Shown here: one piece after another, positions 7,836 to 51,336 of the stretch
Layout of the letters: each line of letters begins with the position of its first letter
How positions within the stretch are numbered: position 1 is the stretch's first letter
NCBI GenBank assembly: GCA_902565645.1
Contig: CACFFJ010000006.1
Coordinates: 1 to 51,336 of the forward strand
Length of the DNA: 51,336 bases
Direction: 5' to 3'
Origin: an uncultured Candidatus Actinomarina sp.
GTDB lineage: Bacteria; Actinomycetota; Acidimicrobiia; Actinomarinales; Actinomarinaceae
Notes under the pieces: generated by a model
What the model was told of the DNA's origin: nothing
Seen by the model: the letters and a program-made list of their open reading frames with translations, nothing else
The model's database searches: none
Translations under genes and position numbers: made by a program

Positions 7836-8303
7836 ATCTTCTACTCGTCCTTGAGTTAGTTCAATTAAAGAATTAGGTGTTAGGAAAAATTTAGACACTC
7901 TATTCCCAGCTCCAATAAATATTTTCTCCCTACGTAATACATTTTCATCAATAAAGATATTTATTTCTTGGGGTAGGCCTAAAGGACTAATCCCTCCATA
8001 AATTTGCTTTGTAACTTCTTCAGCTTCCTCTTTTGAAGCAAAACTAACCTTTTTAGAACCCATTGCCATTTTTGCTTTGTGATTAACATCTAATCTGGTT
8101 GAACCTAATACGCAAAATAAAGTATAAAATTCCTTTGGTTTTTTTGATTTTATTAAAATTGCATTGCAAGAATCCTCAATCTTGTGACCATAATGATCAC
8201 AAAAGCTTTGAGTGTCTGAAAATTCATCCTTACATTCAAAAACTTCTAATTTATCTAGGTTGCTTTCGTAGATATTTTTTACAGTTTCATGGAGTTCAAC
8301 CAT
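7827..8303 (-). CDS. YbaK/EbsC-type aminoacyl-tRNA deacylase-like protein
   Basis: LGSTRLDVNHKAKMAMGSKKVSFASKEEAEEVTKQIYGGISPLGLPQEINIFIDENVL. Start placed at MVELHE (8303), 7 nt after a TATCAT hexamer. Confidence 0.82.
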   Translation of the reverse strand: MVELHETVKNIYESNLDKLEVFECKDEFSDTQSFCDHYGHKIEDSCNAILIKSKKPKEFYTLFCVLGSTRLDVNHKAKMAMGSKKVSFASKEEAEEVTKQIYGGISPLGLPQEINIFIDENVLRREKIFIGAGNRVSKFFLTPNSLIELTQGRVEDLT

Positions 8304-8316
8304 AAACATAATGATA
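8301..8316 (-). promoter_or_regulatory. Putative leaderless -10 for YbaK-like gene
   Basis: TATCAT-7 nt-ATG on the minus strand. Confidence 0.4.
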
Positions 8317-8333
8317 TCTTTAAAATTATAAGT

Positions 8334-8348
8334 TACAATTTCTGTATG
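8334..8348 (+). promoter_or_regulatory. Putative leaderless -10 for tryptophanase-family gene
   Basis: TACAAT-6 nt-ATG, no SD. Confidence 0.45.
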
Positions 8349-9728
8349 GACTTTGAAACAATTATTGAGCCATTCAAAATTAAATCTGTTGAATCTTTAC
8401 CAATTACAACAACGGAGGAACGTAAGGAATATCTAGAAAGAGAACATTGGAATGTTTTCGGACTCAAATCACAAGAGGTGACAATTGATTTATTAACTGA
8501 CTCCGGGACTGGCTCAATGTCATCTGAGCAGTGGGCTTCATTAATGAGGGGAGACGAGGCCTATGCAGGGTCAAAATCTTGGCAAAGGTTCGAAGCTGTT
8601 GTAAGAGACTTAACTGGTTATAAACACATTATTCCAACACATCAAGGAAGGGCTAGTGAGAGAATACTTGCCTCTATTTCAGTTAAACAAGGAGATATTA
8701 TTCCTAGTAATAGTCATTTTGATACCACAAGAGCTAATTTTGAATTTGCTGAAGCTGAACCGGTTGACTTATTGTGCGAAGAGGGGCTTAGTTTATTAGA
8801 TCCATCTGAATTTAAAGGCAATATTGATTTAGAGAAGTTAGAAGAACTATTAAAAGGTAAAGATGCTGCAAAGGTTCCCTTTGTATTGATGACGATAACT
8901 AATAATACAGGTGGAGGACAACCTGTTTCTATGGAAAATTTAAAAGGCGTAAAAGAACTATGTAAAAAATATAAGAAGATGTTTTTATTAGATGCATGTA
9001 GATTTGCTGAGAATGCATGGTTTGTTTCACAAAGAGAAGAAAGCTATAAAGGAAAAAACGTAAGAGATATTGCTAAAGAAGCATTTAGTCTTGCAGATGG
9101 TTGTTCAATAAGTTTGAAGAAAGACGGTTTTGGGAACATAGGAGGTCTTTTAGCTCTTAATGATGATCAAATGGCAGAGGATGCTAAGAATATGTTGATT
9201 TTAACTGAAGGATTTCCTACATATGGAGGCCTAGCAGGTAGAGACTTGGACGCTTTAGCTCAAGGGCTACAAGAAATTACTGATGAAAACTATTTACAGT
9301 ATAGAACAAGATCAATTGCTTATTTAGGAGAGAAGGCTTTAAGCTATGGCTTGCCAATTGTTCAACCAGCTGGAGGCCATGCTTTATATATAGATGCAAA
9401 AACATTTTTACCTGACATACCACCACATCAATATCCAGGACAAGCAATAGTTTGTGAGTTATATTTGCTTGGTGGAATTAGATGTGCTGAATTAGGAACC
9501 TTTGCTTTTGGCGTTGCAGGGGAAAACGGAGAGAATGATAAAGCTGCAACTCATGAGTTAGTAAGACTTGCTGCACCAAGGAGAACATATACGCAAAGTC
9601 ATTTTGATTATGTTGCAGAAGTATTAGAAAAACTTGTCGAAAATAAAGATAAGTTAAAGGGTTTTGAAATTACTGAACAGTCAAGATTTTTAAGACACTT
9701 TACAGCAAAGCTCAAACCTTTAAAATAA
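8346..9728 (+). CDS. Tryptophanase / tyrosine phenol-lyase family PLP-dependent beta-eliminating lyase
   Basis: LTDSGTGSMSSEQWASLMRGDEAYAGSKSW, TITNNTGGGQPVSMEN, SISLKKDGFGNIGG. Start placed at MDFETIIEPF (8346), 6 nt after TACAAT. Confidence 0.92.
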   Translation: MDFETIIEPFKIKSVESLPITTTEERKEYLEREHWNVFGLKSQEVTIDLLTDSGTGSMSSEQWASLMRGDEAYAGSKSWQRFEAVVRDLTGYKHIIPTHQGRASERILASISVKQGDIIPSNSHFDTTRANFEFAEAEPVDLLCEEGLSLLDPSEFKGNIDLEKLEELLKGKDAAKVPFVLMTITNNTGGGQPVSMENLKGVKELCKKYKKMFLLDACRFAENAWFVSQREESYKGKNVRDIAKEAFSLADGCSISLKKDGFGNIGGLLALNDDQMAEDAKNMLILTEGFPTYGGLAGRDLDALAQGLQEITDENYLQYRTRSIAYLGEKALSYGLPIVQPAGGHALYIDAKTFLPDIPPHQYPGQAIVCELYLLGGIRCAELGTFAFGVAGENGENDKAATHELVRLAAPRRTYTQSHFDYVAEVLEKLVENKDKLKGFEITEQSRFLRHFTAKLKPLK

Positions 9729-45779: not shown

Positions 45780-46406
45780 TTATTGATTAGCTAATTGTAT
45801 TAATAATTGCCCTACATAATCTCCAGGAAGGTTACCTGCTCTTCTGGCAATTACATTTAGATCTTTATCTAAAAATACCCAGTATGGAAACGAAGTAAGA
45901 CCATAAGCTGTTGCTATATCTTTATCAAGATCATAGATTTGTGTCTCACTCCATCCTTCACGAGCTAGCCATTCTTGTGGAGGATAGTTATCCCTACCTC
46001 TATCTATTGAGGTAGCTATTGCAATTACGTCAACTCCATCAGGAACACCCATAAGATTAATAATTTCTTGTACAGCTGGAACTTCATTCTGACAATGAGG
46101 ACACCAGTGAGCTAGGAATAACAATGCTTTCGCGTTCCCGTTTTTTTCCAAAGAAACAATCTCGGAATTTTGATTAGGTCCTGAAAACAATGGTCCAGGG
46201 AGTCCAACTGCTATATTATCGTCATTTTCTCCACCATATTGAGGTAAGTTTTCTCCATTAACTGTTGTCTCACCCTCAGGCAGTCCTGCAGCAATTGGCT
46301 CAGAGCTTAATGTAACCCCAATAGCAACAGCTAGACCTATAACGAGAAGAACAATTCCAGCGATTATAAAATTTTTATTCAATAGTTTGTTTCCTTGCAT
46401 AGTCAT
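45780..46406 (-). CDS. Membrane-anchored TlpA/redoxin-like thiol-disulfide protein (CPHC)
   Basis: N-terminal TM; ALLFLAHWCPHCQNEVPAVQEI, AYGLTSFPYWVFLD. Start placed at MTMQGNKL (46406). Confidence 0.88.
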   Translation of the reverse strand: MTMQGNKLLNKNFIIAGIVLLVIGLAVAIGVTLSSEPIAAGLPEGETTVNGENLPQYGGENDDNIAVGLPGPLFSGPNQNSEIVSLEKNGNAKALLFLAHWCPHCQNEVPAVQEIINLMGVPDGVDVIAIATSIDRGRDNYPPQEWLAREGWSETQIYDLDKDIATAYGLTSFPYWVFLDKDLNVIARRAGNLPGDYVGQLLIQLANQ

Positions 46407-46893
46407 AATACAAGATTGCTGCAAATATAGTAATAAATCCGCTACCCGCCATTACTGGGATGCTTATAAATCCAAAAATATCAACATATTTTATGTTGCA
46501 AGGCACATCTACCGCACAGGAACCTCCACCTCCACCACCATTTTGAAGATAGATATGATAAATACTTAAAGAAAAACCTATCAAGCTTGTATAACCAAAT
46601 TTATATAAACTTTTTTTGAAAAAAGACCCTAGCAATAATAATGCAATTGGATACATTAAATATCTTTGGTACCAGCAAAATTTACATGGTATAAACCCAA
46701 CAACCTCTGAATAAATTAAACTACCTAATGCACAAAATGTAGCAACACTAATCGCATAATTTAAAAATTGATCAGTAATTAATTTACTAAAGGTTTTTTT
46801 CGTAAAGTAAAAATATAGAATTATTAGCGTAATCAACCAAGACACTAAAGTTAAAAACCCAAATAAGGTATTAAAAAAAATTATTTTATCCAT
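46375..46893 (-). CDS. Disulfide bond formation protein DsbB family
   Basis: Four TM; CKFCWYQRYLMYPIALLLLGSF and second Cys pair SCAVDVPC. Confidence 0.9.
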   Translation of the reverse strand: MDKIIFFNTLFGFLTLVSWLITLIILYFYFTKKTFSKLITDQFLNYAISVATFCALGSLIYSEVVGFIPCKFCWYQRYLMYPIALLLLGSFFKKSLYKFGYTSLIGFSLSIYHIYLQNGGGGGGSCAVDVPCNIKYVDIFGFISIPVMAGSGFITIFAAILYYDYARKQTIE

Positions 46894-46922: not shown

Positions 46923-48644
46923 TTAATTAACTAGATTCCATGCAGAGAAAAGTTCTTTGTAAACTGGGTTGTTTTTTACAAGATTTTGATGGCTATCAAA
47001 TCCTACAAGTTTTCCTTCTTCCATAACCATTATTCTTTCTGCATTTAATATTGTTTCTAACCTGTGAGCAATAACAATGGACGTTTGAAAAGAGAGTAGT
47101 TGATCGGTTGCTTCTAATATTGATGATTCTGATTCGATATCTAAGTTTGCAGTAGCTTCATCAAAAACAATAATTTGTCTTTTCGCCAAAACAGCTCTAA
47201 GTAATGCAATAAATTGTCTTTCTCCAGCTGATATGTTTCCACCTCTTTCACCTACTTCTTGATCAAGCTTATTTTCATACCTATCAAACCATGAAAGAAC
47301 CCCAATTGATGATAGTTCTTCTTCTAAATTGATATTTTCTGGGTCAGAGTAAATTAAGTTGTCTCTTATTGTTCCTCTAAATAGAAAACTTTCTTGTGGT
47401 ACATATGCAACGTTATCTCTAACCCATTGTTGGCTTACTTCCTCAGCATCACTTTCAAAGTACTCTACATTGCCATCATTTGCTAGATAAAACCTTAAAA
47501 TTAATTTTGCAACTGTACTTTTTCCAGCACCAGTTTCTCCTACAATTGCTATTTTTTCACCTTTATTTATTGTGAAGTTTACATCTTTAAGAACGAGCTC
47601 TCTACCATAAGAGAAATTAACATTTTTAAACTCAATTACTTTTTCTTTATCCATATCAGGTTGAGAATCTCCTTTTGTGGATAAGAATGGGTTTTCATCC
47701 AAAATTGAAAATACCTTCTTCATTGATGAGCCTGCAGATCTTAGTAAGTCATAGTTAAAGGAAAGTTGAATTAATGGATCGAAGAAATAGTTTAGATAAA
47801 ACAATAAAGCAACAAGCTCTCCAATTGTTAAACTCCCCTGAAATATTCTTTGAGACCCAAACCAAATAACAATTGCTATAGAAGTCACTCTAGTAATTTC
47901 AATAAAAGGAAAATAGATAGCAATATTTTTTGCGGACCGCATGTTTGCATCTAAATGTGATTGATTGACGTCTTTAAATCTTTCAATCTGCGTCTTCTCA
48001 TCTCCGTAAGCTTGAATAATTCTTACTCCAGATATTCCCTCTTGTAATGAAGATAAAACTTGTCCTATCCATTCTCTTACCGCCCAGTAAGCAGTGTCTG
48101 CATGTTTTCTAAAGATTCTTGTTGCTAGACCTAGAAGTGGCAAAATTATAAAGGCGATTACAGATAATTGAAAATCTACAAAAAATACAGCTATTGTTGC
48201 TGCAAAAATTGTTAAAAGAGACGTAAGTATACTTGATGCACCTTCTCGAGCAAATTCATTGAGACTCTGCATATCAGAAGTCAATCGCGCTACTAAAACA
48301 CCGGTTTTATTTTTTTCAAAATAATTTATATCCAATGAGGTTAAATGTCTAAAAAGTTTTTCTCTAATCTGTCTTACATATGTTTCTCCAACCAGTCCAA
48401 TAGCAAGTATTGCTCTATTAGTAACAAAATATAAAACCACGACTGTTAAAAAATAGAAGAATGAAATTCGTAGAACATAAGAATAATCTGATTTAACAAC
48501 TCCCTCATCTACGCCTTTTGAGATAAGCCAAGGGCCAACCATCCTTACTCCAGTTCCAAATAAAACAATTAGTGAGCTTTTTATAAGGGGATTCCTTATT
48601 TCAGGAACTAATTTATACGATTTAATAAATACTCTTTCTTTCAT
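46923..48644 (-). CDS. ABC exporter half-transporter (TMD-NBD), catalytically canonical partner
   Basis: VGETGAGKSTVAKLI, NISAGERQFIALLRAVLAKRQIIVFDEATANLD, IVIAHRLET. Confidence 0.94.
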   Translation of the reverse strand: MKERVFIKSYKLVPEIRNPLIKSSLIVLFGTGVRMVGPWLISKGVDEGVVKSDYSYVLRISFFYFLTVVVLYFVTNRAILAIGLVGETYVRQIREKLFRHLTSLDINYFEKNKTGVLVARLTSDMQSLNEFAREGASSILTSLLTIFAATIAVFFVDFQLSVIAFIILPLLGLATRIFRKHADTAYWAVREWIGQVLSSLQEGISGVRIIQAYGDEKTQIERFKDVNQSHLDANMRSAKNIAIYFPFIEITRVTSIAIVIWFGSQRIFQGSLTIGELVALLFYLNYFFDPLIQLSFNYDLLRSAGSSMKKVFSILDENPFLSTKGDSQPDMDKEKVIEFKNVNFSYGRELVLKDVNFTINKGEKIAIVGETGAGKSTVAKLILRFYLANDGNVEYFESDAEEVSQQWVRDNVAYVPQESFLFRGTIRDNLIYSDPENINLEEELSSIGVLSWFDRYENKLDQEVGERGGNISAGERQFIALLRAVLAKRQIIVFDEATANLDIESESSILEATDQLLSFQTSIVIAHRLETILNAERIMVMEEGKLVGFDSHQNLVKNNPVYKELFSAWNLVN

Positions 48645-50401
48645 TTTTTAGACCCTAGTTTTTCTTCTTCAAGAAATAGATTCATGTAAGACTCATCATT
48701 TTTAATAATTTCATCATGTTTACCTTGAGCTCTAACTTTCCCATTTTCAATGAATATAACTTCGTCACAAAGCTCAATAGTTGGAAGCCTATTTGTAATT
48801 ATTAAAGTAGTCATATTCTTCATTGCTGAATTAAGTTCATTCCTAATTTCTTCCTCAGTAGAAGCGTCAACAGCTGATAATGCATCATCCAAAATTAATA
48901 TTCTAGGATTTCTTAATATAGCTCTAGCTAAAGCAATTCTTTGTCTTTGGCCTCCAGATAAACCATAACCTCTTTCTCCTACAGTAGTTTCATAGGCTTC
49001 AGGCAGTTCAGAGATAAAATCATGTGCTCTAGCAACGTTTGCTGCATTTTCTATTTCTTCTTGTGTTGCATCTTTTAATCCGATTGCTATATTTTCTTTT
49101 GCTGAATTTGAGAATAAGAAACTTTCTTGAAAGGCCAAGCTTACATTATTTCTTAGCTCTGATAAATTCAGATTATTAATATCAATTCCATCGATTTGAA
49201 TTTCTCCTGAATTAATTTCATATAACCTTGGAATCAAATAGCCCAGGGTAGATTTTCCTGAACCTGTAGACCCAACAATAGCTACCGTTTTTTTGCCATC
49301 TATTGAAAAAGATAAATTATCAAAAATTTTCTCATTACCATATTTAAAATTAACTTTATTAAAAGTTATTGTTCCATTCCCACCTTCTGGCAATTTTTCA
49401 ACATTTTCATTATTTACAATTGCTGGTTTTTCGTTTAATAATTCTAGGATTCTATTTGCTGCTGATACACTTGCAGGTATCTCAGAAAGAAACCATGCAG
49501 TTATTCTCAAAGGCCACATAAGTAAAAATACATATTGGTTAAAAGCTATAAAATCACCCAAAGTTATATAACCATTTACCGATAAAAACCCTCCAAGCAC
49601 TAGAACGAACAAAGTAATTATCATAGGGATGAGTTCAAAAATTGGAACAAATCTAGTTCTAAGATCTAGATAATCGAGTGACTTTTCGTATATGTTATCT
49701 ATAGCTTGGTCTACTTTGTTTGAAGCGATATTTTCATTACCAAAGGCTTTTACGACTCTAATACCCCCTAATTGTTCTTCAACTTCAGTAGTCATAGTTG
49801 CTTCTGCTTCTTTAACTCTCAAAGATACCTTCATTGCTTTTTCTGCAAATTTAGCACCAACCCATAAAACTGCAGGAATGGAAAGCAAAACAACGGATCC
49901 TAATGGGAGGCTTATGCTTAGCAAGGTTATGCTTAGAATAAATAATAAGAATAGGTTTGATGAAGCTAAAGGAGCAATAGCATAGGCAAGACGAACCTGT
50001 GAAGCATCACTTGATGCTCTCGCCATAAGTTCTCCTGTAGGAACTTTGTCATGGTATTTAAATGCAAGTTTTTGCATATGCGAGAAAATGTTATTTCTAA
50101 TACCAGCTTCTACATTATAAGATACTGACATTCCATAGTATCTTCTAGTTCCAATTGATATGGCACGTGTATACCCAATAACAATTAATGAAGATAATAA
50201 AATTACGAGTATTCGAGTATTCCCTGTAACAATACCATCATCGACAACTCTTTTAATAATGTAAGGGTGGAGGACTACTAGAAAGCACCAAAGTACAGCA
50301 GAAGACATTGCGATATAAAAGTGCTTTTTGTTGCCTTTCATACCCTCTAGATAAAAACGAACTGCTTTTTTGAATTCAGGTGTTTTGTAGACTTTAAACA
50401 T
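48641..50401 (-). CDS. ABC exporter half-transporter (TMD-NBD), degenerate partner
   Basis: VGSTGSGKSTLGYLI, LSGGQRQRIALARAILRNPRILILDDALSAVD, LIITNRLPT; overlaps partner by 4 nt. Confidence 0.94.
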   Translation of the reverse strand: MFKVYKTPEFKKAVRFYLEGMKGNKKHFYIAMSSAVLWCFLVVLHPYIIKRVVDDGIVTGNTRILVILLSSLIVIGYTRAISIGTRRYYGMSVSYNVEAGIRNNIFSHMQKLAFKYHDKVPTGELMARASSDASQVRLAYAIAPLASSNLFLLFILSITLLSISLPLGSVVLLSIPAVLWVGAKFAEKAMKVSLRVKEAEATMTTEVEEQLGGIRVVKAFGNENIASNKVDQAIDNIYEKSLDYLDLRTRFVPIFELIPMIITLFVLVLGGFLSVNGYITLGDFIAFNQYVFLLMWPLRITAWFLSEIPASVSAANRILELLNEKPAIVNNENVEKLPEGGNGTITFNKVNFKYGNEKIFDNLSFSIDGKKTVAIVGSTGSGKSTLGYLIPRLYEINSGEIQIDGIDINNLNLSELRNNVSLAFQESFLFSNSAKENIAIGLKDATQEEIENAANVARAHDFISELPEAYETTVGERGYGLSGGQRQRIALARAILRNPRILILDDALSAVDASTEEEIRNELNSAMKNMTTLIITNRLPTIELCDEVIFIENGKVRAQGKHDEIIKNDESYMNLFLEEEKLGSKK

Positions 50402-50479: not shown

Positions 50480-51336
50480 ATGAGTGACTTGTTAGATAAA
50501 AAGATCGAAGATGTATTAAATGAAGCAGATAGGATGTTTATCGCAACAAGTGTTGGTGGTAATTCATCTGGTGCCTCAGTTTTCTTTAATAGAGATGGAG
50601 ATGATTTAATATTTTTTACATTTAACCCAACTAGAAAAGCAGAGCAAATAAGAATAAATCCACGAGTCCATGCTGTTATTTGGCCTAAAGGACAAGAAGG
50701 AATTAGGGGTCTGCAGATTGATGGAGAGGCATACAAGATAAAAGATGAAGATGAAAAAAAGAAAGCCTATGATTTAGTACTTCAAACAACAGAAGCTTTT
50801 AAAGAGTTTATGGATGATGAATTTTTAATTAAGAATGATGTTGTTGGCTACTACAGGGTTAAACCGACAACTATTAAGTATGTAGATTTTTACCAAGAGG
50901 AGAAATTTGAGTGGAAAACTTTTCCTGCAAATAAAACCTCAGCATTGAAATTTTCTTTAAAGATGGGGTTAAAGAGGATTGGCTTATGGCTAAGGACCAT
51001 AAGGGCACCATTCTTAACTGCAACATTTGCACCTATTTTTATAGGTGCCGCAGTTGCTTGGAATGACTTAAAAGAAAACAATTTACTAACTGAATGGTCG
51101 TGGAATATGTTTTGGTTAGTTCTTTTCGGAGCATCATTAGCGCAAATTGCTACAAATTCCTCAAACGATTATTTCGATCACACTTCAAATGCAGACGAAA
51201 TCAATAAGGTTGCAAGCCCATTTAATGGAGGTAGTAGAGTTATACAAGTTGGCTTAATGACTCCAGGGCAAGTCCTCTTAACTGCTCTTGTAAGCATTGT
51301 TGGAACTATTGGAATAGGTTTATATATAAATCAGCA
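50480..51336 (+). CDS. PNPOx-like (split-barrel flavin/F420-binding) domain fused to UbiA/MenA-type prenyltransferase, 3' partial (absent from ORF track)
   Basis: Uninterrupted frame from ATG 50480 to window end: MSDLLDKKIEDVLNEADRMFIATSVGGNSSGASVFFNRDGDDLIFFTFNPTRKAEQIRINPRVHAVIWPKGQEG...GLKRIGLWLRTIRAPFLTATFAPIFIGAAVAW...NSSNDYFDHTSNADEINKVASPFNGGSRVIQ. Confidence 0.88.
   Translation, partial: MSDLLDKKIEDVLNEADRMFIATSVGGNSSGASVFFNRDGDDLIFFTFNPTRKAEQIRINPRVHAVIWPKGQEGIRGLQIDGEAYKIKDEDEKKKAYDLVLQTTEAFKEFMDDEFLIKNDVVGYYRVKPTTIKYVDFYQEEKFEWKTFPANKTSALKFSLKMGLKRIGLWLRTIRAPFLTATFAPIFIGAAVAWNDLKENNLLTEWSWNMFWLVLFGASLAQIATNSSNDYFDHTSNADEINKVASPFNGGSRVIQVGLMTPGQVLLTALVSIVGTIGIGLYINQ

Follow-up and report, generated by a model that had tools for sequence, protein, structure and literature searches.

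The end of this stretch of DNA raises the question of why a flavin-type split barrel and a quinone-type prenyltransferase should share one reading frame, and what the joined protein would do for its host. The window (the whole stretch analysed, 51,336 nucleotides) is the entire contig C6 of a 0.86 Mb Candidatus Actinomarina genome in 31 contigs that is 74.9% complete, so the frame of interest runs off the contig end. Translation gives 285 stop-free residues from ATG 50480 to the window edge (50480-51336, + strand), and with Pfam it confirms a single continuous frame of about 285 codons with both domains in frame, as a sequence-only reading of the window had proposed. Its parts are the following.

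50480..51336, + strand: fusion gene, first 285 codons, truncated where the contig stops
50480..50914, + strand: N-terminal PNPOx-like split barrel, residues 1-145 (Pfam PNPOx_N; model; Foldseek)
50618..50650, + strand: TFNPTRKAEQI, residues 47-57, presumed FMN-phosphate site (alignment to PdxH 1dnl)
50915..50974, + strand: linker, residues 146-165, less conserved, containing Met162 at ATG 50963 (alignment, pN/pS)
50975..51336, + strand: MenA-type UbiA prenyltransferase domain, only its first part, residues 166-285 (Pfam, NCBIfam; complete in the relative L032)
51164..51196, + strand: first Asp-rich motif, NDYFDHTSNAD, residues 229-239 (invariant positions, 37 sequences)
51215..51247, + strand: SPFNGGSRVIQ, residues 246-256, MenA-like segment (invariant or nearly so in A1)

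In the window copy, Pfam places PNPOx_N at residues 5-97 (E 2e-10, above cut-off) and, truncated as the copy is, UbiA at residues 185-284 (E 2e-7). Both domains are above the Pfam cut-off in the complete relative L032 (UbiA 185-458, E 5e-24; PNPOx_N, E 2e-9), and UbiA is so in those complete relatives that were scanned. The best NCBIfam models for the C-terminal half are 1,4-dihydroxy-2-naphthoate (DHNA) polyprenyltransferases, in agreement with the earlier assignment of a PNPOx-type split barrel and a MenA-type UbiA to one protein. A second start at ATG 50963, which had also been suggested, finds no support in the alignment: Met162 is not conserved and is replaced by Leu in L032, L042, L047, L060, and L063.

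The frame is intact in about 30 other Actinomarina genomes at 82-92% identity, and complete copies measure 505-507 aa, with both length and junction near constant. A class-wide search found the fusion in 35 of the 42 genomes of the genus, two of these copies being cut by contig ends; the seven genomes without it are 51-77% complete. Between the window and its relatives, pN is about 0.05-0.1 against a pS of about 0.7-0.8, which excludes chance or a sequencing frameshift, and the barrel and UbiA halves, with pN about 0.03-0.1 and pS about 0.6-0.9, are both under purifying selection. An assembly artefact or frameshift is also ruled out, since many single-cell and metagenome assemblies made independently contain the intact ortholog. 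Within the genus there is no frameshift between the domains, no close relative with separate genes, and no half that lacks domain support, and the fused architecture stands. We found no published description of a barrel-prenyltransferase fusion in the open-licence literature.

Searching related genomes for the two-domain architecture showed it to be present across Actinomarina, in Marinimicrobiota, and in one Bacteroidota MAG (G247), whose copy in L062 has 74% identity. The full fusion occurs in 18 of 149 genomes of the Marinimicrobiota, at 528 bits or more; other genomes of that phylum have a divergent form of ~460 aa, and in some the UbiA part stands alone, the UbiA-only versions including the distant relatives L165, L166, and L168. 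Elsewhere in the class Acidimicrobiia, matches are confined to the UbiA half and mostly fall in frames as long as a stand-alone enzyme. In midpoint-rooted domain trees with long branches flagged, Actinomarina and L062 group with the Marinimicrobiota genomes G248 and G358, with support of 99/97 for the UbiA domain and 100/100 for the barrel; the UbiA group is nested inside the Marinimicrobiota fusions, and the barrel tree does not resolve Actinomarina as a separate clade. The simplest reading that these trees suggest is one fusion event followed by whole-gene transfer into Actinomarina from a Marinimicrobiota-like lineage, a direction that is likely but unproven.

Three other Acidimicrobiia (G044, G165, and G039; L112 2967-4879, - strand; L113 1119-2930, + strand; L114 2661-4088, - strand) encode a UbiA of MenA-like type whose N-terminus carries a conserved extension of ~140 aa. 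Considered as a putative divergent barrel, this extension gave no Pfam match (L112 and L114 scanned) and no profile match. The extended UbiA gene of G044 and that of G165 are each immediately preceded by a separate PNPOx-like gene.

Both Asp motifs of the prenyltransferase half (N229, D230, D233, and D239; N379, D383, D387, and K392) are invariant in 37 of 37 sequences, the window copy itself stopping before the second. Of the 31 complete Actinomarina loci, 30 have a methylase gene of 207-214 aa as the next gene, within about 20 bp; its assignment to the UbiE/MenG type rests on those scanned, namely L032 (Ubie_methyltran, E 5e-31; TIGR01934, 133.8 bits, under the cut-off of 158) and L033 (E 9e-26). 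The methylase downstream of the fusion in G248 scores 200.6 bits, above the TIGR01934 cut-off, and a Ubie_methyltran gene is likewise adjacent or close to the fusion in G358, G394, G280, G304, G364, and G380; the fusion loci examined from genomes of 0.8-1.0 Mb (L148-L157) showed none. The check for men genes near the fusion that the sequence-only reading had proposed found the UbiE/MenG-type methylase adjacent and no other men gene nearby. The other UbiA protein common to Actinomarina is, in the window's own genome, a heme O synthase adjoining cytochrome oxidase genes, and a further UbiA in G008 is nearest to decaprenyl-phosphate phosphoribosyltransferase models, below their cut-offs. No quinone-type UbiA other than the fusion was found in the genus.

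A predicted MenA-like role for the C-terminal half is well supported by these comparisons. The UbiA fold, both Asp motifs, and the pairing with a UbiE/MenG-type methylase are common to the fusion and MenA (TIGR00751, PRK06080), whereas the fusion has an N-terminal split barrel of ~150 aa and most of its host genomes lack the men or mqn pathway. It also differs in that, against the TIGR00751 menA cut-off of 102.15 bits, Actinomarina L032 falls below (81.6), while L150 (109.6), L160 (111.7), and L165 (118.9) lie above. UBIAD1, the vertebrate MK-4 synthase, is a UbiA enzyme like the fusion and matches it weakly in sequence (8djk, E 0.48), but it is eukaryotic, has no fused reductase, and is not a close relative.

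Several further genes surround the fusion. Two adjacent ABC exporter half-transporter genes (window 46923-50401, - strand) are divergent from it and hold the same position in several relatives. A DsbB-type gene overlaps a redoxin-type gene at window 45780-46893 (- strand) and at 8169-9279 (- strand) in L032; in several relatives (e.g., L032, L042, and L060) the two genes come right after the fusion-methylase pair, in convergent orientation. DsbB uses quinones. Farther away, the window encodes a beta-eliminating lyase of the tryptophanase/tyrosine phenol-lyase type (8289-9728, + strand), in what is a streamlined genome.

The reading that we prefer, to which we give a probability of roughly one-half, is that the fusion is a MenA-type respiratory-quinone prenyltransferase with a quinol-reducing flavin barrel and that the methylase follows it in the pathway. 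The C-terminal half would attach a polyprenyl chain to DHNA or a closely similar aromatic quinol that bears a carboxylate, most likely removing that carboxylate as MenA does, and the UbiE/MenG-type enzyme encoded next door in relatives would methylate the prenylated product. The N-terminal barrel would bind a flavin, with FMN likelier than F420, and would keep or make the substrate a reduced quinol. UbiA prenyltransferases of the MenA kind use the reduced quinol, and UBIAD1 prenylates a reduced quinone headgroup. The substrate, the flavin binding, and the reductase role are what we infer here. Against this reading are the scores of the Actinomarina UbiA half and methylase, below the TIGR00751 and TIGR01934 cut-offs, respectively, the decay of the barrel motif in nine relatives and absence of the domain in three, and the fact that the fusion genomes have no known DHNA-making pathway.

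The last point was examined by searching for MenD, MenB, MqnA/D, and HPPD. Across 70 genomes, all 10 Acidimicrobiia with a stand-alone MenA have a MenD above cut-off, and none was found in the 11 Actinomarina, the 18 full-fusion Marinimicrobiota, or the three Acidimicrobiia whose UbiA is N-terminally extended (G044, G039, and G165). A divergent MenD was considered and rejected, as the matches to the MenD model that were checked, those of G020 and G248, proved to be acetolactate synthases. MqnA/MqnD (PF02621) was found in none of the 11 Actinomarina or 18 Marinimicrobiota fusion genomes, G247 alone being positive, and MenB was above cut-off in none of the 16 genomes searched. MqnC-model matches of ~300 bits do not speak for a futalosine pathway in Actinomarina, since those checked (G020 and G044) are CofH beside CofG. 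A homogentisate route was likewise discarded: HPPD is absent from the Actinomarina genomes searched and, in the full-fusion set, occurs only in G364 and G304. Gaps in the assemblies do not explain these absences, because 10 Actinomarina genomes, drafts that are 87-94% complete, all lack the same genes. NuoD of complex I is present in 11 of 11 Actinomarina genomes searched; among the Marinimicrobiota fusion genomes, the larger ones have it and those of 0.8-1.0 Mb do not.

Most genomes of the Marinimicrobiota phylum that were examined (G248 and relatives, L140-L169) lack MenD and MqnA/D. In the portion of the literature accessible to us, no published description of such a phylum-wide quinone-pathway gap was found, nor, in its open-licence part, anything on the quinones of Actinomarina or Marinimicrobiota. 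The Bacteroidota-labelled MAG G247 (L062, L118, and L170) has futalosine MqnA/D and MqnC above cut-off in addition to its fusion copy, which has no methylase gene beside it.

The headgroup would be either salvaged or drawn from an unrecognised route. Salvage is a sub-case of the preferred reading that names the source of the headgroup, and we advance it tentatively: the hosts would be auxotrophs for DHNA or a similar compound that keep the last two steps and import the headgroup of their neighbours, with the barrel re-reducing oxidised naphthoquinone. The absence of MenD and MqnA/D beside a retained terminal MenA-type/MenG-type pair fits such a life, as do streamlined genomes no larger than about 1.1 Mb, and there is a precedent in Porphyromonas pasteri, in which five men genes are missing, the final two are retained, and DHNA supports growth (PMC9704088). 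However, the larger genome of G248 (3.4 Mb) has an equal gap, dilute seawater is a poor setting for reliance on an oxidisable naphthoate, and a DHNA transporter was not identified.

That the headgroup is instead made de novo by unnamed genes, as a naphthoquinone or another quinone, appears doubtful to us. It would account for the loss of MenD, MenB, MqnA/D, and HPPD together in Actinomarina despite complex I, and for the gap in a genome of 3.4 Mb; Nitrospira, which lacks the canonical pathways and turned out to have unusual plastoquinones (PMC12324825), offers a precedent. On the other side, our search for headgroup genes covered men, mqn, and HPPD genes but no ubiquinone-type ones (UbiC, UbiD, UbiX, and hydroxylases), no candidate upstream gene was found, and salvage covers the same facts with known parts. 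Correspondingly doubtful is the idea that the fusion might be the prenylation step of an unrecognised quinone route common to Actinomarina and Marinimicrobiota, its flavin barrel reducing the incoming headgroup.

What the barrel contributes can be approached from its fold and its motif. The barrel model has a pLDDT of 79, and its top Foldseek matches are PNPOx-like FMN-type barrels, with heme-binding split barrels also among the fold matches; the full-length AlphaFold model is of low confidence (pLDDT 58.7; 7 rows), and its fold matches serve as support only. Residues 47-57 (TFNPTRKAEQI) align with YTNLGSRKAHQI of E. coli PdxH (1dnl), a segment that we take to contribute FMN-phosphate contacts in that enzyme. 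The fusion barrel has the fold, the helix-strand order, and the TRKAEQI..NPRV segment in common with PdxH and PNPOx-like FMN split barrels (PF01243). It is nonetheless no PdxH: the TIGR00558 model gives 21.5 bits against a cut-off of 180, the C-terminal PdxH (dimerisation) domain is missing by Pfam, and the barrel is joined to a membrane enzyme.

All 28 core sequences have T47, R52, and K53 unchanged, which, together with a barrel pN as low as that of the UbiA half, suggests a kept ligand site. Nine divergent relatives have other residues in place of R52 and K53 and keep the Asp motifs of the prenyltransferase, and the barrel domain is absent in the three UbiA-only proteins named above, so prenylation in general cannot depend on the barrel. 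The direct coupling of redox chemistry to prenylation that the sequence-only reading had envisaged stays conjectural, the cofactor motif being gone in nine relatives and the domain in three. From this distribution, the barrel is predicted to serve the core clade and to be dispensable for the prenyltransferase as such. The same decay and loss, with the Asp motifs retained, could mean that the barrel is non-catalytic and serves only for dimerisation, stabilisation, or tethering of the prenyltransferase, or that it holds a different ligand, for example heme, as the heme-binding barrels among the fold matches would allow. We consider this unlikely in light of the invariant T47, R52, and K53 and the low barrel pN.

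With respect to the cofactor of the preferred flavin barrel, Actinomarina encodes F420 biosynthesis, with CofG and CofH present and CofE in 10 of 10 well-covered genomes. Its CofH (L134 8807-10690, + strand) is a 628-aa frame with ~250 extra N-terminal residues that have no Pfam match. CofE was found in none of the 18 Marinimicrobiota full-fusion genomes and not in G247, so, barring uptake from outside, F420 cannot be the cofactor throughout, and F420 coupling as a general function, one of the options put forward earlier, finds no support. FMN is the more likely cofactor of a barrel that presumably binds flavin. An F420-dependent reductase of the FDOR-B kind is improbable, for although the barrel belongs to the same fold superfamily as FDOR-B F420 split barrels (Rv1155 type), gives weak matches to Rv1155-type models, and has an F420-making host in Actinomarina, the F420 models score no higher than PdxH, its motif is PdxH-like, and most host lineages outside Actinomycetota lack CofE.

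Candidatus Actinomarina and SAR406/Marinimicrobiota are widespread in the ocean. If the fusion is their quinone prenyltransferase and no known route feeds it, then both the identity and the source of their electron carrier are in question, and the consequence would be either a dependence on neighbours for a quinone precursor or a further biosynthetic route. Either outcome would bear on efforts to culture Actinomarina and Marinimicrobiota.
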